9,309 nucleotides of DNA. Origin: Thermotoga sp. Its GTDB lineage: Bacteria; Thermotogota; Thermotogae; B3-G13. The stretch spans positions 1-9,309 of the forward strand of contig QNAT01000023.1 of NCBI GenBank assembly GCA_003641555.1, given 5' to 3'. Position 1 is the first letter of the stretch, and the number at the start of each line of letters is the position of its first letter. Shown in pieces: positions 2 through 9,309 of the stretch. Made by a program: the position numbers and the translations under genes. A model generated the notes under the pieces. It was not told the DNA's origin. It did not search any database and saw only the letters and a program-made list of their open reading frames with translations.

Positions 2-553
2 GTTCTACAGCGAAACATGGAGAAAAAGCAGAAAGAATTACGCATACTTTCCGCGGGTTGCTCATCTGGAGAAGAACCATATACCTTATCGATAATATTG
101 CACGAAATGGTAGATGATCTTAGGGATATCGATGCGAAGATCGTGGGAATAGATATAGATGAATCGGCTTTGAAAAAGGCGGAAAGGGGTATTTATGACG
201 AACGTTCTGTAAAAGATGTTCCCGGGAAATATTTAGATAAGCACTTCGATATCCTCCCCTCTGGATATTCTGTTAAAGAACACGTACGTAGACTCGTGAG
301 GTTTCATAAGATCAATCTTTTCGATTCTACAAATCTACTGAGAGTTGGCAAACAATTCGATTTTGTCTTCTGCAGAAATGTGCTTATTTATTTCTCAGAT
401 GAATCGAGAAGACAGGTAGTAGAAAATCTTTATATGATGATGAAACCTGGGGCATATATCTTTCTCGGTTACTCGGAATCTATGACCAGGATAACGCGCG
501 CATTCAGAATAAAAAGGGCAGGAAATACCTTGGTTTACCAAAAACCTATGTGA
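2..553 (+). CDS. cheR: Chemotaxis protein methyltransferase CheR, C-terminal part (5' end outside window)
   Basis: CheR transfers methyl groups from S-adenosylmethionine to glutamates of chemoreceptors, giving sensory adaptation. What remains is the SAM-binding catalytic domain. The family signature SAGCSSGEEPYTL lies at about 50-88, followed by VGIDIDESALKKAERGIY with its acidic SAM-contacting residues, then FCRNVLIYFS near 368-397 and LGYSES near 463-480, all strong CheR hallmarks. The frame stays open to the left edge and reads VLQRN before the ATG at 17. The CheR N-terminal helical domain normally precedes this point, so that ATG is internal and the gene is cut by the window. It ends with TGA 12 bases before cheY. 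Its likely substrate is the double-hairpin receptor encoded downstream, which carries candidate methylation sites. No beta-subdomain peculiarity is visible. Identification is secure; the N-terminus is unseen. Confidence 0.96.
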   Translation, partial: VLQRNMEKKQKELRILSAGCSSGEEPYTLSIILHEMVDDLRDIDAKIVGIDIDESALKKAERGIYDERSVKDVPGKYLDKHFDILPSGYSVKEHVRRLVRFHKINLFDSTNLLRVGKQFDFVFCRNVLIYFSDESRRQVVENLYMMMKPGAYIFLGYSESMTRITRAFRIKRAGNTLVYQKPM

Positions 554-565
554 GAAGGTGAAGTT

Positions 566-943
566 ATGACCAGAATTTTGATCGTCGATGATTCACAGAT
601 GACACGTAACTTCCATACCTATGTCTTAAGATCTGCGGGATTCGACGTAATAGACGCCTCGGATGGAGCAGAGGCATTAGAAATATTGTACAGAGAAGGG
701 AATATAGACTGTATTATCACTGATCTGAATATGCCCAATGTAGATGGTTTTACTATGATAAAGAGGATTCGAGAAGATCCTGTTTTCACTGATCTACCCA
801 TAATAATAGTTTCTACACTCGATGAGATAAAAGATAAAGAAAAAGGCTTTACTATCGGAGCAAATTTCTATATTATAAAACCTATTGTACCCCAGGTTTT
901 GGTTGAACATGTGAGGATCGCTGTGGGAGGAAACAAAGGATGA
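566..943 (+). CDS. cheY: Single-domain response regulator, CheY-like
   Basis: This is a 125-residue receiver domain with no output domain, the usual CheY size. It should accept phosphate from CheA and carry the signal to a motor or another target. The acidic pair is D8/D9 in ILIVDDS, the phosphoacceptor is D53 in IITDLNMPNVDG, the switch Ser/Thr position is S83 in IIIVST, the aromatic switch position is Y102 and the conserved lysine is K105 in YIIKP, so all catalytic positions are filled. The start is ATG 566 with GAAGGTGA just upstream. The gene overlaps cheA by four bases (ATGA), which implies translational coupling with its kinase. The sequence alone does not say whether the output is flagellar, pilus-based or something else, because no motor gene is in the window. 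It could also act as a phosphate sink for the two-HPt CheA. Confidence 0.95.
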   Translation: MTRILIVDDSQMTRNFHTYVLRSAGFDVIDASDGAEALEILYREGNIDCIITDLNMPNVDGFTMIKRIREDPVFTDLPIIIVSTLDEIKDKEKGFTIGANFYIIKPIVPQVLVEHVRIAVGGNKG

Positions 944-3591
944 AAAAAAGGTTTACCTCTGAGGATATAGAACTCCTGCGAGAGATATTGGAAGAAAGTC
1001 CCCAATATTTAGAAGGGATAGAAGACAATATCCTTTCTTTAGAAAAAAATCCCTCAGAAGAAATCATAGATGAAGTTTTCAGAACCTTTCATTCCTTAAA
1101 GGGAATTACTGGCTTTGTTGATCTGCCCTCCGTCACAAAAACTTGCCATTCATTGGAATCCCTTGTTAAGATGATCAAAGAAGATAAAGCAACTATCACG
1201 AATTCCATCATAGATTTATTGTTAGATGGAACAGATTTGATCAAAGAAATAATGGCTAACATAGAAAGTGCTATATCCAATTATAATGGGGGAGAAATAG
1301 AAATAGATGTTATTGGCTTGGGTGAAGATGAAATAGAGAAAAGGGTACAGGACATAAGCAATCTGGAAGTGGAATCGAAACCTGAGCGAGAAGAGATTAT
1401 TCCCGAAAAGGATATTTCTGAAGGAATCCTTTCGGATACATTCCTAACCGAGTCTCTTAATGATTTCACAGAGGAATTTTCTGAGAATATCAGCGAGCTG
1501 GATGAATTGATGTTGAATCTGGAAAATCATCCCGAAAATAAAGAATTGATAGCAGACATCATGAGAGCCTTTCATACTATAAAAGGAGGTGCAAGACTCC
1601 TTATCTCTCTGAATCCAGAACCGAATATCTTACTGAGTTTAAAACGAGTAGAGAAGATATCTCATAGTCTCGAAGATGTATTTCAATCTGTCCGAGAATC
1701 AGGTACAGATTTTCCAACAACTCTCGTAGATCTTATTTACCCTGGTATAGATATGCTGAAAGCATTGAACAACTCCATACTCCAGAATGAAACTCCCGTT
1801 GAAATCGAGAATTATATAGAAAAGCTCGAAAAAAGCCTGGATGAACTGGCATCTGAGCAAAAGGTGCAAAAAAGAGTAGAAGGCAAAAGAGAAGAAACAG
1901 AAATCCCTCCAAGTTTTCAGGCGTTTTTGAATATAACAGAGCAATTTTTAGATTTCGCCGAGCATTTCAATATCAAAGAAGGAGATATAAAACAACTCGA
2001 AAGAATGGCAACTATGACGATTTCCGCATTAAACGCCGTGGAACTCAAAAAGGTAGATACCGTACAGAAGATCTTAAAAGCAGCGGAAGAAAAAAATTCT
2101 AAAGTTTATAAAGATAGATTGAAGAATTTTTCTACATGGTTTGCGGATGTCGTATCTCGCTACACTCGTATAACGGCTACCATTTCTCCAGAAGATGAAA
2201 CAAAGAGAATTGGCGAATTACTCAAAGAAGATGAGAAGATCTCAAATCAAATTCTTGAACAGGCTCTCGTTGAACAAAAAGGAACATCAGAGAAGATAGG
2301 TAAGATACTCCAGAAAAAAGGGATTACTTCAGAAGAAATAAGTACCGCTTTGATGAAACAATCGGCCGCAAGGCGCAAAGCCATAGAGAAAACACTACCC
2401 ACAGCTTTAACAACCCGTACTATCCGTGTAAATAGCGAAAAACTCGACAAATTGATGAACCTTGCCGGTGAAGTCCTTACACTTAAAAATCAATACCAAC
2501 ATATAGCAAAGGAAGCGGAACTGGGCGTTCAAAGTGTGACTAAAAGATTAAAGAATTCTGTTGCCGAGATGTCACGATTATCGAACGAACTCCAGGCTGT
2601 AGTAATGTCTATGCGGATGGTCCCAATAGGAACCCTGTTCAATAAGTATAAGAGAACAGTTCGAGATCTTGCTAAGAGTCTTGGAAAGAAAATAGAATTG
2701 TATATGGAAGGTGAGGAAACAGAGGTAGATAGAAATGTTCTGGAAAAATTAGCGGATCCTATAACACATATGGTGAGGAATTGCGTTGATCATGGAATAG
2801 AACTCCCCACTGAAAGAAAAGCAATCGGAAAAAATGAAACGGGATATATACGATTCAAGGCATATTATCGTGGAAGTTACGTTTTCGTGGAAGTTGAAGA
2901 TGATGGAAAAGGCATTGATCCAAATGCTGTAAGAGCAAAAGCGATAGATAAAGGCCTGGTATCACCTGAAGAAACTATGAGATACAATGATGAAGAAATT
3001 TTGAATTTCATCTTCATCCCGGGATTCAGTACTTCAGAGGTCGTTTCAAATGTTTCAGGGAGAGGAGTAGGGATGGACGTTGTTAAGACGAATGTAGAAT
3101 CTATGGGTGGAAAAGTCTATGTGGATTCTAAGGTAGGCAAGGGTACGAAGATAACAATGAGAATTCCGCTTTCTCTTTCGATCTTCAAAGGTCTTATGGT
3201 TGAAATAGGTTCACAACAGTATATATTACCTCTTGATGTTGTAGAAGAAACGATCAAAGTTAACATGAAAAAGATACATAATTACAAAAATTTTATGCTC
3301 GTAGAGGTGAGAAGCGAGACTATTCCTCTCTTTATAGCTGAAGAACTTCTGAATGGGCTTCACATTGAATTGAAGGAAAAGAGCTTTGAATTCGATTTGG
3401 TTCCTTTAGTCATTGTATCCGAGGAAGGGAATAGATTTGCTTTAGTCGTGGATCAATTTCTTGAAGAATCTGAATTCCTTATAAAAAGTATTCCTGATTA
3501 TCTCAGGTCGGATAGCTTCATTACAGGAGTTACGATCCTCGGAGATGGTACACCTGTTCTTATATTGAATCCAACGAAAGTGGTGAGGTAG
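940..3591 (+). CDS. cheA: Chemotaxis histidine kinase CheA with two HPt domains and a GspE-N-like repeat
   Basis: This is an 883-residue kinase, longer than the roughly 650-residue E. coli CheA. Domains in order: HPt1 (about 5-110, phospho-His H51 in FHSLKGITG); HPt2 (about 168-300, H212 in FHTIKGGARL, with an extra segment after it); a helical region (about 324-415) without an obvious phospho-His; a tandem repeat IGELLKEDEKIS and IGKILQKKGITS (423-475) resembling the GspE/MshEN N-terminal fold; the dimerisation helices (about 494-555); the ATPase domain with N box HMVRNCVDHGIE (610-621), G1 EDDGKGID (653-660), GFSTSEVVSNVSGRGVGMD (695-713) and GKGTKI (733-738); and a CheW-like regulatory domain (about 749-883). 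No recognisable P2 (CheY/CheB-docking) domain is present. ATG 940 follows GGAGG at 926-930 and overlaps cheY. The TAG stop abuts the next gene's GTG. Catalytic residues look intact, so this should be an active kinase with two phosphorylation sites. Confidence 0.97.
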   Translation: MKKRFTSEDIELLREILEESPQYLEGIEDNILSLEKNPSEEIIDEVFRTFHSLKGITGFVDLPSVTKTCHSLESLVKMIKEDKATITNSIIDLLLDGTDLIKEIMANIESAISNYNGGEIEIDVIGLGEDEIEKRVQDISNLEVESKPEREEIIPEKDISEGILSDTFLTESLNDFTEEFSENISELDELMLNLENHPENKELIADIMRAFHTIKGGARLLISLNPEPNILLSLKRVEKISHSLEDVFQSVRESGTDFPTTLVDLIYPGIDMLKALNNSILQNETPVEIENYIEKLEKSLDELASEQKVQKRVEGKREETEIPPSFQAFLNITEQFLDFAEHFNIKEGDIKQLERMATMTISALNAVELKKVDTVQKILKAAEEKNSKVYKDRLKNFSTWFADVVSRYTRITATISPEDETKRIGELLKEDEKISNQILEQALVEQKGTSEKIGKILQKKGITSEEISTALMKQSAARRKAIEKTLPTALTTRTIRVNSEKLDKLMNLAGEVLTLKNQYQHIAKEAELGVQSVTKRLKNSVAEMSRLSNELQAVVMSMRMVPIGTLFNKYKRTVRDLAKSLGKKIELYMEGEETEVDRNVLEKLADPITHMVRNCVDHGIELPTERKAIGKNETGYIRFKAYYRGSYVFVEVEDDGKGIDPNAVRAKAIDKGLVSPEETMRYNDEEILNFIFIPGFSTSEVVSNVSGRGVGMDVVKTNVESMGGKVYVDSKVGKGTKITMRIPLSLSIFKGLMVEIGSQQYILPLDVVEETIKVNMKKIHNYKNFMLVEVRSETIPLFIAEELLNGLHIELKEKSFEFDLVPLVIVSEEGNRFALVVDQFLEESEFLIKSIPDYLRSDSFITGVTILGDGTPVLILNPTKVVR

Positions 3592-4359
3592 GTGGCAAAG
3601 ACGATCGCCTTTGCTAATAGGAAAGGAGGTTGTGGAAAGACAACATTGGCTTACAATGTGGTTTCTTATATATCGAAGATCAATAAAAGGGTGCTTGCTA
3701 TCGACTTCGATTCTCAGGCACAAATGACATTGTATGCGGGTTTAATGCCCCACACGATCGAATATGGCATATATGAAATGTTGATGTATTTTTTAAATAA
3801 AGGAAGAAGATTACAGAAATGCATGAAACAGGTGAGAAATATGTTCATAATACCAGCAAATCAAAATCTCGCATCTTTTGATACTGCAATTGTCAATTTT
3901 GAACATAAAGAGATGATACTCAGAGACCTTCTTATGGAAATAGAAGCGGAATACGATTATGTTATAATCGACACACCCCCATCTTTAGGATACAGCACGA
4001 TTAATGCCCTTGCAGCTTCGGATTTTGTTGTAATTCCTGTTAAGACGGATTTTTTATCTCTCGCAGGCTTAGCGCAGATGATGAAGGTGTTTTACAAAGT
4101 AAACGTCACATTGAATCCATTACTTCAACTGTTGTGTGTTGTTCCAACTATGTTTGATACCCGAACTCGTATCTCGCATGAAGTCCTCGAGGAACTCAAA
4201 GATAATTTCGGACCGTCTATGGTTTCCGATCCTATCAGAGTAGATGTCAAAATAGCAGAATCAGCCAGTCATGGCCTCTCTATATTCGATTACAAACCTA
4301 AGAGTAGGGGAGCACAAGATATCAAAGGGTTAGTAGACTTTCTCTTAGAAAAGATGTGA
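3592..4359 (+). CDS. ParA/Soj-family partitioning ATPase, chemosensory-cluster type
   Basis: This is a 255-residue P-loop ATPase of the small ParA type without an N-terminal helix-turn-helix. ParA dimers bind DNA non-specifically when ATP-bound and are released by a partner protein, moving cargo over the nucleoid. The deviant Walker A motif is NRKGGCGKTT (9-18, with signature K11 and K16), Walker A' is IDFDSQAQMT around D40, and Walker B is VIIDTPPSL with D127. The C-terminal stretch IAESASHG followed by KPKSRGAQ is typical of ParA/Soj. No parB or parS-like site lies nearby. Instead the gene sits between cheA and a soluble receptor, as in the Rhodobacter PpfA/TlpT locus, so its cargo is inferred to be the cytoplasmic receptor array rather than DNA. 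GTG 3592 immediately follows the cheA stop, with GTGAGGT just upstream, so translation should be coupled. The Cys in the P-loop replaces the usual Val. Confidence 0.93.
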   Translation: MAKTIAFANRKGGCGKTTLAYNVVSYISKINKRVLAIDFDSQAQMTLYAGLMPHTIEYGIYEMLMYFLNKGRRLQKCMKQVRNMFIIPANQNLASFDTAIVNFEHKEMILRDLLMEIEAEYDYVIIDTPPSLGYSTINALAASDFVVIPVKTDFLSLAGLAQMMKVFYKVNVTLNPLLQLLCVVPTMFDTRTRISHEVLEELKDNFGPSMVSDPIRVDVKIAESASHGLSIFDYKPKSRGAQDIKGLVDFLLEKM

Positions 4360-4363
4360 GGAG
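4358..4363 (+). promoter_or_regulatory. Ribosome binding site of the TPR gene
   Basis: GAGGAG overlaps the parA stop codon and lies 4 bases before GTG 4368 (6 bases if only GAGG pairs). It favours GTG 4368 over the upstream in-frame GTG 4356, and places the ParB-like motif right at the N-terminus. Confidence 0.6.
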
Positions 4364-4367
4364 TATA

Positions 4368-4688
4368 GTGAGAAACAAAAAGCTCGGAATGGGTTTGAAA
4401 GATCTATTAGATCTCGATGTTAAAACTTTATTTGGGGAAGCGATCAGACTCGATGAGGCTGGAAAGATATTTCAAGCTTATCACCTTTATATGAAGATCT
4501 CTGAAATAGATAGATCGCCCACAGCGAGCAAAGCCTTTAACAACGCTGCCATCATACTGGCAGAAAATGGTTTCATAAAAGATGCAATAGCATTGTTGGA
4601 ACACGCCGTTAGCCTTGATCCGGATAGCGAAGATGTTAAACGGAATCTTGAGGTACTCAGAGGTGATAGTGATGATAATGGGGATTGA
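4368..4688 (+). CDS. Small TPR protein with ParB-like N-terminus (probable ParA partner or adaptor)
   Basis: This is a 106-residue protein in two parts. Residues 1-16, MRNKKLGMGLKDLLDL, resemble the extreme N-terminus of ParB/Spo0J (pattern K-x-LG-[RK]-G-L-x-x-L-[LF]), the segment that stimulates ParA ATPase; the usual Arg/Lys position is Met8 here. Residues about 25-100 form two TPR-like helix pairs, from AIRLDEAGKIFQAYHLYMKI through KAFNNAAIILAENGF to DAIALLEHAVSLDPDSEDVK. TPRs mediate protein-protein contacts, including with Hsp70s. The start at GTG 4368 is preferred because GAGGAG lies at 4358-4363. A GTG at 4356, overlapping the parA stop, would add four residues but has no comparable Shine-Dalgarno. 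The 3' end overlaps the hsp70 gene by 17 bases. There is no J-domain HPD motif. The TPR call is fairly secure; a role linking ParA to Hsp70 is inference. Confidence 0.85.
   Translation: MRNKKLGMGLKDLLDLDVKTLFGEAIRLDEAGKIFQAYHLYMKISEIDRSPTASKAFNNAAIILAENGFIKDAIALLEHAVSLDPDSEDVKRNLEVLRGDSDDNGD
4659..4666 (+). promoter_or_regulatory. Ribosome binding site of the hsp70 gene
   Basis: AGAGGTGA sits inside the end of the TPR gene, 5 bases before ATG 4672. It sets the Hsp70 start so that the protein begins MIMGIDFGTTNS, as expected for the family. A second ATG at 4678 is 11 bases away and less well placed. Confidence 0.65.
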
Positions 4689-6153
4689 TTTCGGTACGAC
4701 GAATTCACTTGGTGCATATATAGATAAGTCTAAAAAACCTGAAGTTATTATTAATGAAAGAGGTATGCGTTTAACTCCATCGATCGTATTCTTTAAGAAT
4801 CCTCAAGAAGCTGTGATAGGGGAACTTGCTCGTTCTCAGATGCTCGTTCGTCCCGGGCAAACGATCTTCCGTGTGAAGAGAAAGATGGGAACGAGGCACA
4901 TATATAAGATCTTTGACAGAGAATACACCCCTTCTGAAGTAGGAAGCCTGATCCTGAGAAAAATCAAAAAATATACTTCTGAATATCTTGATAAGGAAGT
5001 GAAAAAGGCTGTTATTACGGTACCTGCTTACTTCGATGATAACCAACGCCAGGCTGTTCTACAGGCAGCGAAATTGGCTGATATAGAGATTATGAAGCTC
5101 TTGAACGAACCCACTGCAGCTGCACTGGCTTATCAACTTTATTCCAGGGATACAGGAACGATATTGGTGTTAGATTTAGGAGGAGGTACTTTCGATATCA
5201 CTCTAATGAGATGTACAAAGGGGCTTTTCGAGGTCCTTACCACCGGAGGCAGTACCGAACTCGGAGGAGCAGATTTCGATAACATACTGGCTAAATGGGT
5301 AATTGAAACGATGAAAGAAAAGGATAATGTGGATCTCTCTAAGGATCCGATTGCCTTACAGCAGATCTACAATTGTATCGAAAGGACCAAAGTAGATCTT
5401 TCAACTACTACTGAATCTACGGTCGTAATTCCTTACATAGCCATGAACAAGGATGGCCCAATTCACGTGAACCTGGAAATATCGAGGGAAAGATTTGAAA
5501 ATCTTACCGATGATTTGTTTCAAAAGGCAAAGCAATTGGTTATTTCAACGTTGAATGAGATCGAATTCGATCCCGATGATGTAGATATCGTTGTTTTTGC
5601 AGGCGGAGCAACACGTATGCCAAGATTCAGAGAAGAGATGGGTAAGATCTTCAAGAGATCTGAAATAAAAACTGACATCAATCCTGATGAGGTCGTTGCA
5701 TTAGGGGCAGCCGTTCAGGCCGCGATCATCGAGGGGCGAATAAAACATGTAGAATTGAAGGATATCTTACCCCATAATCTGGGAATCTTAGATGATGAGG
5801 GAAGGTTTGTACCAATCATAGAGAGAGGAAAGGTGTATCCTACCGTATCTACTAAAATCTTCACGAATACTCAGGATGAACAAAATACCGCTAATATAGA
5901 AATATTACAAGAGCGGAGTGATAGAATCGTAAGTCTTGGAAACTTTCAATTCAAGTCAAAAAGTAAATGGAAGAAAGGAGAAGCTAACATAGCAGTTAGT
6001 TTCAACATAGATGGAAATGGAGTCTTAAACGTTTCAGCTGAAGATATCGATACTCATGAAGCGGAGGAGGTGATCATATCCAATGGGATCCTTTCATTGG
6101 ATAATAACCCCGACCATACGGAACGCAGAGGGCCGGGAATAAAAATTTTGTGA
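4672..6153 (+). CDS. Hsp70/DnaK-family protein lacking the C-terminal lid
   Basis: This is a 493-residue Hsp70, against about 610-640 for DnaK. The ATPase domain (about 1-355) is complete: MGIDFGTTNS (phosphate 1), a Lys equivalent to DnaK K70 at K69 in FRVKRKMG, NEPTAAALAY with E146, VLDLGGGTFDIT (phosphate 2, T173), TELGGADFD, and VVFAGGATRMP (adenosine). The loop insertion seen in proteobacterial DnaK after the K70 region is absent. The linker reads VELKD (360-364) instead of VLLLD. A beta substrate-binding domain follows, including DIDGNGVLNVSAEDID-like sequence (read as FNIDGNGVLNVSAED, 444-457). The protein ends 21 residues after ISNG, so the helical lid is missing. Start ATG 4672 has AGAGGTGA at 4659-4666; longer in-frame starts add residues unlike any Hsp70. 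It is embedded in the che operon with no dnaJ or grpE, so it is probably a dedicated chaperone or ATP-driven switch rather than housekeeping DnaK. Confidence 0.94.
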   Translation: MIMGIDFGTTNSLGAYIDKSKKPEVIINERGMRLTPSIVFFKNPQEAVIGELARSQMLVRPGQTIFRVKRKMGTRHIYKIFDREYTPSEVGSLILRKIKKYTSEYLDKEVKKAVITVPAYFDDNQRQAVLQAAKLADIEIMKLLNEPTAAALAYQLYSRDTGTILVLDLGGGTFDITLMRCTKGLFEVLTTGGSTELGGADFDNILAKWVIETMKEKDNVDLSKDPIALQQIYNCIERTKVDLSTTTESTVVIPYIAMNKDGPIHVNLEISRERFENLTDDLFQKAKQLVISTLNEIEFDPDDVDIVVFAGGATRMPRFREEMGKIFKRSEIKTDINPDEVVALGAAVQAAIIEGRIKHVELKDILPHNLGILDDEGRFVPIIERGKVYPTVSTKIFTNTQDEQNTANIEILQERSDRIVSLGNFQFKSKSKWKKGEANIAVSFNIDGNGVLNVSAEDIDTHEAEEVIISNGILSLDNNPDHTERRGPGIKIL

Positions 6154-6160
6154 AGGAGGT
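6153..6160 (+). promoter_or_regulatory. Strong ribosome binding site of the receptor gene
   Basis: AAGGAGGT, nearly the full anti-16S complement, lies 7 bases before ATG 6168. It rules out the in-frame GTG 6150, which would place the Shine-Dalgarno inside the coding region. It is the strongest ribosome binding site seen in the cluster, fitting high receptor stoichiometry. Confidence 0.8.
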
Positions 6161-6167
6161 AAGTAAT

Positions 6168-8147
6168 ATGGCAGGAAAAAGATTAGAGGTACCTGAAACC
6201 ATGAAAAAAACAGGAGATACTGGAAGAGCTGGGACAGGTATAGTGCAAAAAGCAGGTGTTAACGAAGAAGAACTCAAAACGAAACGTGAGGCGGCTAAAA
6301 AGAGGGCGATGGAAAGGGCAAGAGCTCGTACATTGGCAAAGAGACAGGCAATGGCGGAACGACTCTCTGCCGCCGCTGAACAATTGCTCTCCGGTGTGGA
6401 GGAGGCTTCATCGGCTGTAGAAGAGCTCAGTAAGGCCTCAGAACAAATAGCTGCGGGAGCAGAACAATCATCCAGCGCCGCTGATGAATCGAGGGCTGCG
6501 ATCAACCAAATCAACACGAGTGTTGAAAATGTCCTAAAACTCGTTCAAGAGATGGTACAAGATGCGGAAAATACCCAGAGTCAGATTCAAGAAATGGCTG
6601 ATGATATCAATTCCCTTATAGCTTCTGTCGATGAATCTGCAGAAAGGAATAAGGAATCCACCAGGATGATCCGGGAACTCGAAGGTCAATCTAATAAGAT
6701 TGAGGAGATCGTAAAAACGGTAACGATGATAGCAGATCAAACGAATCTTCTCGCACTCAATGCGGCAATAGAAGCTGCAAGAGCCGGGGAGCATGGCACT
6801 GGTTTTGCTGTTGTCGCAGATGAGGTAAGAAATCTGGCAGAAGCATCAGAAAAGTCGGCACGTGAGATAAGAGATGGGGTTGGGAAGATAAAGAATGCGG
6901 TTGCAGATATCGTTAAAAATATTCAAGCCATCGTTGAAGATGCCAATCAACAGGTGAAACTTGGTAAGGAAGTAACAAATATCCTGGGAGATGTTATTGG
7001 AAACCTCAACAAATTGATGGAATTAATAGGTAGAGTAGAAGAAATGATGAATGAGATTGCGAATGCAAGTAAGGAATTTCTCGAAACTTCGGAAACGGTT
7101 GCCAGTGCCTCCGAAGAACTCAGCTCATCTGCGGTAGAAGCGTCCAAAGCTCTGGAACAGCAGACAAAGGCTTTCTCCGAGATCAACACGGCAACGCAGG
7201 AACTCGTAGACCTTGCAGAGGATCTGAAAACAGCTACGGATACGGAAAAATCAGCGGAGACAGTTGCTGCAGCCGCAGAAGAACTTTCTTCGAATATCGA
7301 GGAAGCATCGAGCAGTTCACAAGAGATAATGGCTTCATTAGAACAGCTCTCCAAGGCTGCTCAACTTCTATCGGAAGCCACAGATAAAGGTGGAGAATTG
7401 GCAGCAAGAATTGTTGAAATGATGGAAGAATTGCGCAACCTGGTTGAAGAGAGTAGAAAGGTCCTGGATACTCTTGGAAAGGCAATGAATGAAAATGATA
7501 AAAAGGCTGGCAATATGATAGAAGGACTTTCGAAGGCATCGGATATGTTTTCTGAAGCGAGTAGCAGCCTGGGAAGATTGGGAGAAGAGGGGAATCAAAT
7601 CGATAAGACAGTGGATGCGATAGATAAGATAACCATTCAGGTGAATATGCTCGCTGTAAATGGCTTTGTCGAAGCAGCGCATGCGGGAGAATATGGAAAA
7701 GGATTCTCGGTCGTCGCAAACGATATCCGAAGTCTGGCAAACGAATCAGGTGAAAATGCTGAACAGATAAAAGAACTCGTGAAGGGAATCCAGAGACAGA
7801 TCACATTGGTATCCGCAGACATCGATGAATCCTCAAAACAAAATAATGCAGGAGTAGTCCAGGCTCGTGGAACGACAAAGATCCTTAAAAAAGTAGAAGA
7901 GGCAGTGGTAAGAACGGAAGGACAGCTGGAGAATATCGCTAAAGAATTTGAACAAATAGCAAGTGCGACTGAAGAGGCACAGAAAGCGGTTGAGCAGATC
8001 AAATCTGCTACTGCTGAATCTGCTTCTGCCATCGAAGAGGCCTCTAAAGGAGCGCAAGAACAGGCAAGAGGTATGGAGGAATTGACAAAAGCCATCGAGG
8101 ATATCGCCGCTACTGCCGATGAACTGCAATCAGAAACGGGGGCGTAA
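6168..8147 (+). CDS. Soluble chemoreceptor with two tandem MCP signalling hairpins
   Basis: This is a 659-residue, almost entirely helical Ala/Glu/Ser-rich protein with no signal peptide, membrane segment, HAMP or recognisable sensor domain, hence a cytoplasmic receptor. Residues 1-35 look unstructured and 36-66 are strongly basic. Two units of about 290 residues follow, offset by about 300 (about 68-353 and 367-653). Tip 1 is canonical: IADQTNLLALNAAIEAARAG (188-207). Tip 2 diverges: ITIQVNMLAVNGFVEAAHAG (488-507). Sites matching or nearly matching the methylation consensus flank each hairpin at E71/Q72, E316/E317, E371/E372 and E602/E603, plausible CheR targets. No C-terminal CheR-tethering pentapeptide is present. 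The start is ATG 6168 behind a near-perfect AAGGAGGT. The gene lies 14 bases after hsp70 and 3 before the CheW-domain gene. By position it is the likely ParA cargo, like TlpT. MCP identity is certain; the partition role is inferred. Confidence 0.95.
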   Translation: MAGKRLEVPETMKKTGDTGRAGTGIVQKAGVNEEELKTKREAAKKRAMERARARTLAKRQAMAERLSAAAEQLLSGVEEASSAVEELSKASEQIAAGAEQSSSAADESRAAINQINTSVENVLKLVQEMVQDAENTQSQIQEMADDINSLIASVDESAERNKESTRMIRELEGQSNKIEEIVKTVTMIADQTNLLALNAAIEAARAGEHGTGFAVVADEVRNLAEASEKSAREIRDGVGKIKNAVADIVKNIQAIVEDANQQVKLGKEVTNILGDVIGNLNKLMELIGRVEEMMNEIANASKEFLETSETVASASEELSSSAVEASKALEQQTKAFSEINTATQELVDLAEDLKTATDTEKSAETVAAAAEELSSNIEEASSSSQEIMASLEQLSKAAQLLSEATDKGGELAARIVEMMEELRNLVEESRKVLDTLGKAMNENDKKAGNMIEGLSKASDMFSEASSSLGRLGEEGNQIDKTVDAIDKITIQVNMLAVNGFVEAAHAGEYGKGFSVVANDIRSLANESGENAEQIKELVKGIQRQITLVSADIDESSKQNNAGVVQARGTTKILKKVEEAVVRTEGQLENIAKEFEQIASATEEAQKAVEQIKSATAESASAIEEASKGAQEQARGMEELTKAIEDIAATADELQSETGA

Positions 8148-8150
8148 ACG

Positions 8151-9309
8151 ATGGCGATCAAGCAATACGTGACATTCCTTCTTAAGGATGAAATCTACGC
8201 AATACTTGTTAAAGAGGTCCAGGAAATAATCCGACCTCCTAAGGTAATTCGCCTTCCTCTCGTCCCTGATTATGTGGAAGGCATTGCCAATTTGCGTGGT
8301 GAGATTCTCCCTGTTGTAGATTTCAGAAAGAAACTGGGTCTTGAAGAAAAAGAATTACCGACGCGAAAGGTTATAGTACTCCAGCATGAAGGCAAACTTC
8401 TCGGCATATCTGTAGATAGAACATCACAGGTTATTCGTGCAGACGATGGGCAGCTCGAAGAAGTAGGTACAAGCAGTAATTTTGTGTCCCATATCATTCA
8501 TGGTGGAAATGAAAGATTGTACATGCTGGTAGATGTGGGAAAGGTAATGGAGTTTCAAGTGCAGAATATCGAAAAAGCGAAGGTTAATCTGAAAGAAGCG
8601 AAGACTGACAAGGTTAAGAGCGTAGAAGAATACATTCAGATCGTCACCTTTGAGATGTCAGGAGAGGAATACGCATTCCCCATAGAGGAGATCCAGGAGA
8701 TAATTAGATTTGCAGAACCCACAGTCATCCCTGATGTACCTGATTACGTGAAGGGAATCGTGAATCTCCGAGATTCTGTTTTACCAATCATCGATCTCAG
8801 GTTGATGCTTGGGCTTGAAGCAACGAATGTAGATGAATTCACAAAGGTCATAGTTTTAAATTGTTCTGGAATGAAGATAGGATTTGTAGTCGACAGGATC
8901 TATGAGGTGCTTCGCATTGAAAAATCCAGGATCGATAAACCACCCTCTCTTATATCCGGGGATGATGCGAAGAGGATCAAAGGCATCATCAAAATGGATG
9001 AACGTGTTATCCTGCTCTTAGACAGCACAGCGCTCGTTCCTGAAGAAGTATCTTCACTGAGCTCTGTTGAGGAAAAAGGAGAGAAAGAGAAAGGGGGTAT
9101 GATGAACGAAGAGCAATATGTTGTCTTCAAAGTCGGCGAAGAGGAATACGGAGCTTCTATAGAACAGGTTAGGGAGATCAACCGAATGACCAATATAACG
9201 AAAGTTCCTCGCGCCCCAAAATTTGTGGAGGGAATAATGAATCTCAGAGGAGAAGTCATTCCCGTTGTCGATCTCAGAAAACGTTTTGAACTCGAAACCG
9301 TAGAAAAAA
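8151..9309 (+). CDS. cheW: Tandem CheW-domain scaffold protein (at least three CheW domains, 3' end outside window)
   Basis: An open frame from ATG 8151 to the right edge gives 386 visible residues with no stop. It holds three CheW-like domains in series: domain 1 at about 3-138 with GIANLRGEILPVVDFR (44-59), domain 2 at about 160-295 with GIVNLRDSVLPIIDLR (202-217), and domain 3 from about 321 with GIMNLRGEVIPVVDLR (361-376), cut by the window. Charged linkers join them (about 139-159 and 297-318). CheW couples receptors to CheA inside the array, and the NLR[G/D] arginine is kept in all three copies. Domain 2 replaces the conserved Gly with Asp. The gene starts three bases after the receptor stop, with GGGGG at 8138-8142 as a plausible ribosome binding site. 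Ordinary CheW is about 150-170 residues with one domain, so this is a multivalent scaffold. The total number of domains is unknown. Confidence 0.94.
   Translation, partial: MAIKQYVTFLLKDEIYAILVKEVQEIIRPPKVIRLPLVPDYVEGIANLRGEILPVVDFRKKLGLEEKELPTRKVIVLQHEGKLLGISVDRTSQVIRADDGQLEEVGTSSNFVSHIIHGGNERLYMLVDVGKVMEFQVQNIEKAKVNLKEAKTDKVKSVEEYIQIVTFEMSGEEYAFPIEEIQEIIRFAEPTVIPDVPDYVKGIVNLRDSVLPIIDLRLMLGLEATNVDEFTKVIVLNCSGMKIGFVVDRIYEVLRIEKSRIDKPPSLISGDDAKRIKGIIKMDERVILLLDSTALVPEEVSSLSSVEEKGEKEKGGMMNEEQYVVFKVGEEEYGASIEQVREINRMTNITKVPRAPKFVEGIMNLRGEVIPVVDLRKRFELETVEK

Follow-up and report, generated by a model that had tools for sequence, protein, structure and literature searches.

A recurrent parA-TPR-hsp70 cassette in an F9-type chemosensory operon of Thermotoga sp., with a predicted role in array positioning

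The stretch of DNA analysed here, referred to as the window, is 9,309 nucleotides long and comes from Thermotoga sp.; it carries a chemosensory operon in which three genes, encoding a ParA-type ATPase, a small tetratricopeptide repeat (TPR) protein and an Hsp70, lie between cheA and the gene of a soluble receptor. The window is one whole contig (C23) of a draft genome (G000) that is 72% complete, so the operon ends lie beyond both edges. Eight co-directional genes occupy the + strand: a truncated cheR, a response regulator (RR) gene, cheA, parA, the TPR gene, hsp70, the receptor gene and a triple cheW.

The parA gene (3592..4359) encodes a Soj-type Walker ATPase without an extra N-terminal domain (Pfam AAA_31, ParA type, 170 bits), and the best solved relatives of the protein are 8ray and Soj proteins. 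The TPR gene (4356..4688, starting from GTG at 4356 or 4368) encodes a predicted ParA adaptor, in which a ParB-like ParA-binding motif, LGMGLKDLL (4383..4409), was recognised by its register against ParB of Myxococcus xanthus. The hsp70 gene (4672..6153; Pfam HSP70, 455.7 bits) encodes a lidless protein made of a nucleotide domain and a beta substrate domain according to its structure model, and ends in a hydrophobic C-terminal tail (IKIL, 6139..6150). The DosM-like receptor gene extends over 6168..8147 (or from GTG 6150); its better start is the ATG at 6168, preceded by AAGGAGG (6153-6159), and 14 bases then separate it from hsp70. From cheA through hsp70 the frames abut or overlap: parA begins on the base directly after the cheA stop, parA and the TPR gene overlap by 4 bases if the latter starts at 4356, and the TPR gene and hsp70 overlap by 17 bases. 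An earlier sequence-only reading of this DNA had described four consecutive, tightly coupled genes for ParA, a TPR protein, a lidless Hsp70 and a membrane-free double MCP, and coordinates, Pfam, hydropathy and the structure model all agree with that description. It had also placed ParA beside a soluble receptor; the two do share an operon, but they are not adjacent, as the TPR gene and hsp70 intervene.

The parA-TPR-hsp70 cassette is a real and recurrent part of F9-type operons. Its arrangement is not chance, because the same order recurs in other genomes: contiguous parA-TPR-hsp70 is present at 11 loci in Thermotogota and Atribacterota (G000, G017, G054, G058, G074, G075, G079, G094, G103, G118 and G120), with the receptor gene directly after the cassette at 9 of them; the order is rearranged in G058, and the contig ends in G094. 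The proposal of a conserved parA-TPR-hsp70-receptor module is thus upheld across two phyla, and the gene order is not confined to one genome. Among 103 genomes of the class, the TPR profile matched nine at E < 1e-39 (next match 2e-8). Full-length lidless Hsp70s were found in seven of the 103 by a profile at E <= 1e-140 (787-886 bits, all other class matches scoring at most 496 bits), in a scan that would overlook more divergent lidless Hsp70s or copies in missing parts of draft genomes. G094 holds an eighth copy, truncated where its contig ends, and all eight adjoin a TPR gene. In Atribacterota the TPR gene occurs in 3 of 50 genomes, each time with parA and hsp70 alongside. Some relatives of the TPR protein and the Hsp70 bear the names Syntrophomonadaceae, Syntrophomonas or Syntrophothermus, which suggests a third phylum, Bacillota. 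Here TPR-Hsp70 linkage is indicated in three pairs of equally long longest contigs; length matches of this kind join 10 of the 50 TPR entries to an Hsp70 entry (70 in all). A viral_contigs scan with the longer TPR group gave no relative.

The operon is filed as F9 class by its signature components alone, because a DosM-type receptor and a concatenated triple CheW are the published marks of F9 (PMC7534058; PMC9321776). The predicted receptor has two MCPsignal stretches by Pfam, with signalling tips at residues 198 and 498, and no membrane helix (highest 19-residue hydropathy 1.0); no sensory domain was found in it by Pfam. Over about 615-630 aa it shares 40-41% identity with four DosM proteins of proteobacteria. 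The triple cheW gene (cheW3, 8151..9308) is cut at its 3′ end by the contig with its frame still open, and the 386 aa present contain three CheW stretches (303.5 bits). At the other end of the window lie cheR (2..553, its 5′ end cut by the contig start; Pfam CheR, 167.7 bits), a single-domain RR gene (566..943; Response_reg) and the cheA of the F9-type operon (940..3591; Hpt, matched twice, H-kinase_dim, HATPase_c and CheW). Relatives share the order HEAT-cheR-RR-cheA-(parA-TPR-hsp70)-dosM-cheW3-cheB (L077, L078, L084, L085, and L093 with a split cheA); their cheB lies downstream, beyond the point at which the window contig stops. Residues 423-473 of the window CheA resemble the c-di-GMP-binding MshE-N domain (37.2 bits, cut-off 38). 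An input of c-di-GMP via CheA was dropped as a candidate, since only the window CheA has such a stretch, below cut-off even there, and the three orthologous CheAs scanned do not show it.

Outside these phyla the F9 operon occurs in other forms. Seven proteobacterial plasmid loci, chosen from the best matches (three from Azospirillum), have the order dosM-cheW3-cheB-HEAT-cheR-RR-cheA plus a small gene. By annotation, 2 of the 7 have a ParA alongside, and neither the TPR adaptor nor Hsp70 was found beside any of them, four loci having been checked by BLAST of reading frames as well as annotation and three by annotation alone, from incomplete plasmid gene tables. ParA is therefore an occasional F9 component (ppfA is reported in che operons of 77 of 206 species; PMC2829493), and what is new is the presence of the TPR adaptor and Hsp70. 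At the cassette's place, after cheA, the proteobacterial operons encode a small protein of 78-87 aa (L102 17257-17520, L103 17178-17414, L104 17138-17374, L105 16904-17146), which by eye has no ParB-like motif. Plasmid pMO1 of Marinitoga okinawensis (L101) was rejected as an F9 relative: it has a triple CheW but no DosM-type receptor, and within its 28 kb, positions 14292-21299 hold a triple-CheW-like gene, two MCP genes and an HD-domain phosphodiesterase gene. The second CheAs of G076, G009, G003 and G077 were likewise set aside, as no dosM-CheW3 pair was present in the stretches examined.

The genus of Marinitoga aeolica (g7) presents the cassette in several states. G074 and G075 carry it whole; in G053 (M. 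aeolica) hsp70 is absent, and the TPR gene and dosM lie 49 bases apart; in G036 and G073, dosM, cheW3 and cheA are kept and parA, TPR and hsp70 are all absent. In G036, dosM follows cheA after 74 bases, and the operon is taken as the same one because its dosM, cheA and cheR share 68, 56 and 71% identity with their G074 counterparts. The G073 operon (L096) is split by many frame breaks, through decay or assembly error, and is weak evidence. We infer that the Marinitoga absences are losses. The series runs from the whole cassette, through absence of hsp70 only, to absence of all three genes, and suggests a one-way dependence, of Hsp70 on parA-TPR.

The TPR protein is probably the ParA adaptor of the window operon, because the ParA-binding motif of ParB appears in it in register and it is the only window protein bearing that motif. 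In M. xanthus ParB, the motif is reported to span residues 11-19, with hydrophobic L11, L15, L18 and I19 and a central R13; the R13A variant binds ParA moderately less well, retains almost no ATPase stimulation and does not support DNA segregation in vivo (PMC12462528). The N-terminus of the window protein contains KKLGMGLKDLL. The same register (LG[R/K/M]G[L/I]xxhh) is found at the N-terminus of 45 of 48 aligned family members, and 270 of 24000 shuffled N-termini matched the pattern. The 48 members are the window and 47 of 50 profile matches; omitted were a fragment (P0034), a TPR protein unrelated to the family (P0050) and the entry of the window itself (P0007). The members without the motif are P0028 and P0039, which apparently have late starts, and P0030. 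The charged place is R in 26 of the motif-bearing members, M in 13 and K in 6. No such pattern was found in the other seven window proteins, nor in the first 60 residues of the window DosM and 15 of 15 further DosM proteins. The partition parallel with TlpT of Rhodobacter sphaeroides, drawn in the sequence-only reading, is accordingly retained in altered form: a ParB-type ParA-binding motif is present in the TPR family, but it sits on the TPR protein and not on the receptor. The F9 signature of DosM and triple CheW, together with this ParB-like end, goes beyond that reading.

The TPR_2 match of the TPR protein (22.7 bits) is under the 27-bit cut-off, and no ParB domain was found on it, Pfam giving only TPR_2 and NCBIfam nothing. 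The AlphaFold (AF2) model has a flexible N-terminus and five helices, with a mean pLDDT of 86.5. Its solved-structure neighbours were discarded as evidence, the best being designed TPRs (best E 1.5e-3, none <=0.001); Hsp70/Hsp90-tail-binding TPR domains are among them, which, the fold being a common one, carries no evidential weight. The idea that the TPR groove serves only as a receptor for the Hsp70 tail is weakened, as M. aeolica retains NNAAVILAENGF without any hsp70.

The ParA side of the predicted contact between ParA and its adaptor is partly conserved. The residues of M. xanthus ParA were mapped through an alignment with 8ray, assumed to be the same protein since its residue types agree with those cited, onto 31 module ParAs (the window and P0121-P0150; P0135 is the window's own entry, so the window is counted twice). 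All 31 have Leu at the place of pocket residue L150, 25 have Leu at that of L152 and 20 at that of L192, and 26 have Glu at the place of E117. ParA matches in G016, G013 and G022 had no che neighbours in the stretches examined. ParB was not found by TIGR00180 in five of six genomes with parA-TPR (G000, which is incomplete, G053, G054, G058 and G074) and was found in G017; the same model matched a ParB in 10 of 14 control genomes. Chromosome partition in those five genomes may not use ParB.

The lidless Hsp70 forms a group of its own. A profile search recovered 70 proteins at E <= 1e-150 among 7999 candidates scored, of which P0120 is a 610-aa DnaK and P0119 is borderline. The alignment holds 64 members, the window and 63 others (left out were P0052, the window's own entry, P0073, P0114, P0117, P0118, P0119 and P0120). 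Seven catalytic (ATPase) positions are invariant throughout, linker position 361 is Glu in 49 members, and the C-terminal end is hydrophobic-x-hydrophobic-hydrophobic in 63 (the exception is P0069). The window protein ends at 493 aa, and its model is DnaK-like without the alpha-helical lid. In a quick tree of 36 rows the group is separate from DnaK (SH-aLRT 100), and P0120 groups with DnaK; G000 holds a separate DnaK-type gene on C239, 40% identical to the window Hsp70. The protein thus keeps the DnaK fold and ATPase residues, but differs from DnaK in its missing lid, own clade, altered linker, conserved hydrophobic C-terminus and fixed place in the F9-type operon. An Hsp70-like protein linked to a chemosensory pathway is reported elsewhere: in M. 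xanthus, StkA has its place of action upstream of the Dif proteins, which are chemosensory (PMC4319316).

The best reading of the locus is array positioning via a ParB-mimicking TPR adaptor. The inserted cassette would position or partition a predicted cytoplasmic receptor array along the nucleoid, an account we consider moderately probable. DosM would hold together two CheA/CheW3 layers that face each other, as in the F9 system of Vibrio cholerae. ParA in its ATP form would sit on the nucleoid, and the TPR protein would bridge the two partners, its N-terminal ParB-like peptide engaging the ParA dimer and its TPR body the array, a role likened to that of ParB for DNA and of the TlpT N-terminus for PpfA. 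The lidless Hsp70 may act on the ParA-TPR-array link by loading, release or remodelling, and this step is the weakest part of the explanation. Each of these interactions, like positioning itself, is something we infer. The earlier interpretation is partly supported, by the conservation of the module beyond one genome and by the ParB-type motif in the TPR family. Its proposals that ParA positions the array, that Hsp70 assembles or disassembles it and that folding status is fed into CheA are conjectures, and nothing observed here favours the last.

Several observations weigh against this reading. The window adaptor has Met where ParB has Arg/Lys, the four hydrophobic places being kept, and it is the sole Met among the window and P0001-P0030, the others being 25 R, 2 K and 2 that lack the motif; Met occupies the place in 12 of 18 members of the longer group, P0031-P0049. 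Because of this Met and the behaviour of M. xanthus R13A, the adaptor is predicted to bind ParA yet to stimulate it poorly, which counts against simple ParB-like partition in the window's organism, and because R13A also fails in vivo, confidence in positioning is lowered. The window ParA deviates at two pocket positions, Y134 (the L152 place) and A99 (the E117 place), and the M. xanthus pocket residue L187 is not conserved, being Arg, Lys or Tyr in all 31 module ParAs. Glu at position 99 is also missing in P0141, P0148 and P0149, of which at least two have R-type adaptors (P0141 with P0005, paired via equal-sized contigs, and the P0149-like ParA of L094); co-variation of adaptor Met with ParA position 99 was dropped for that reason. 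The ParA of the Syntrophomonadaceae-type group was not recovered. The operon can, moreover, persist without hsp70 (M. aeolica) and without the cassette (G036, G073).

These same observations bear on the alternatives. A more elaborate form of positioning would make the cassette a chaperone-gated protein-partition machine, in which the ParB-mimicking adaptor couples ParA to the array and the Hsp70, docking by its hydrophobic tail, gives ATP-driven release or reset, replacing stimulation where the adaptor has lost Arg/Lys (the window and the 12 longer Syntrophomonadaceae-type adaptors); we regard it as doubtful. It is likewise unlikely, though worth keeping in view, that nothing is moved at all, and that array size or nucleation is governed by ParA and the TPR protein, with Hsp70 serving to fold or unstack DosM/CheW3. 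ATPases of this sort can be a requirement for assembly, since in Halothiobacillus CheY foci were typically missing from cells that lacked the ParC homologue Hn0722 (PMC10241942), and a dedicated Hsp70 would suit the building of a very long coiled-coil receptor; against this, G036 and G073 retain dosM, cheW3 and cheA without any of the three cassette genes, and in V. cholerae F9 it is DosM that is described as the apparently essential receptor for array formation (PMC7534058).

A role in sensing is suggested because DosM lacks a sensory domain: the nucleotide or client state of Hsp70, relayed by the TPR protein, would set CheA activity. According to PMC9321776, 98% of DosM homologues likewise have no sensory domain, so that arrays need other receptors or sensory proteins, and the position of StkA upstream of Dif fits such a role; but the M. 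aeolica operon persists without hsp70, and those of G036 and G073 without the cassette, and we give this account little credence. Nor is it at all probable that a plasmid-type partition pair and a DnaK copy merely travel with the operon without acting on it. F9 gene clusters are reported to be sporadic, with many horizontal transfers (PMC9321776), the cassette can be absent, and the window adaptor lacks the activating residue; passengers, however, would hardly be expected to show identical internal order at 11 loci in two phyla, overlapping frames, an Hsp70 clade well apart from DnaK and a TPR protein without a ParB domain.

The output of the system is approached through the genomes that carry it. 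Eight of the nine class genomes bearing the TPR gene have a second CheA. In G054 (Thermosipho sp. GB_MAG9_058, L044) the F9-type CheA is the only one and FlhA has no match; a flagellum is therefore an unlikely output there, and flagellar control is not the general one. Of the 12 genomes that carry the TPR gene, 11 have FlhA, G054 being the exception, and 8 have PilT above cut-off, so neither flagella nor type IV pili fit all as a single output. Two CheX phosphatases and an HD-GYP-type response regulator lie downstream of cheB in L093 (1407-3332, Pfam), and BLAST places similar HD-GYP-type regulators downstream of cheB in L077 (13246-14698) and L044 (16051-17109). These regulators give a hint of c-di-GMP as the output.

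The locus resembles several known systems and matches none of them fully. It shares with V. cholerae F9 (CheA VC1397, triple CheW VC1402, DosM VC1403) a double-signalling-domain soluble receptor, a triple CheW, a CheA and, usually, the presence of a second chemosensory system in the genome; the V. cholerae arrays are described as two-layered and cytoplasmic, with a poorly understood function (PMC7534058; PMC9321776). In the parts of those sources available, ParA, a TPR adaptor and Hsp70 go unmentioned for F9, whereas the window has all three between cheA and dosM. Like PpfA/TlpT of R. sphaeroides, it combines a ParA-like ATPase and a soluble receptor in one operon with a ParB-like N-terminal peptide, but that peptide is described on the receptor TlpT (PMC3964821; PMC7333895) and here belongs to a small TPR protein in its own right; in addition, the receptor is of DosM type and an Hsp70 is present. 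With ParA-ParB (ParABS) it has in common a Soj-type ParA and a motif register hydrophobic at 0, +4, +7 and +8 with Arg/Lys at +2; it differs in a partner without a ParB domain, a predicted cargo that is a protein array, and Met at +2. ParC/ParP of Vibrio likewise pairs a ParA-family ATPase with an adaptor for chemosensory arrays, but ParP is reported to integrate into the array by its own C-terminus, whereas the TPR protein shows only a weak TPR by Pfam. No description of ParA, TPR protein and Hsp70 together in a chemosensory operon was found in searches of open-licence PMC papers.

The locus names three candidate partners for F9 arrays, whose scaffold receptor is described as needing other parts for input (PMC9321776). 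Marinitoga offers a natural series within one genus: cassette complete, without hsp70, and without the cassette. If the positioning reading is true, an Hsp70 dedicated to ParA-driven positioning would connect chaperones with bacterial spatial organisation in a new way.

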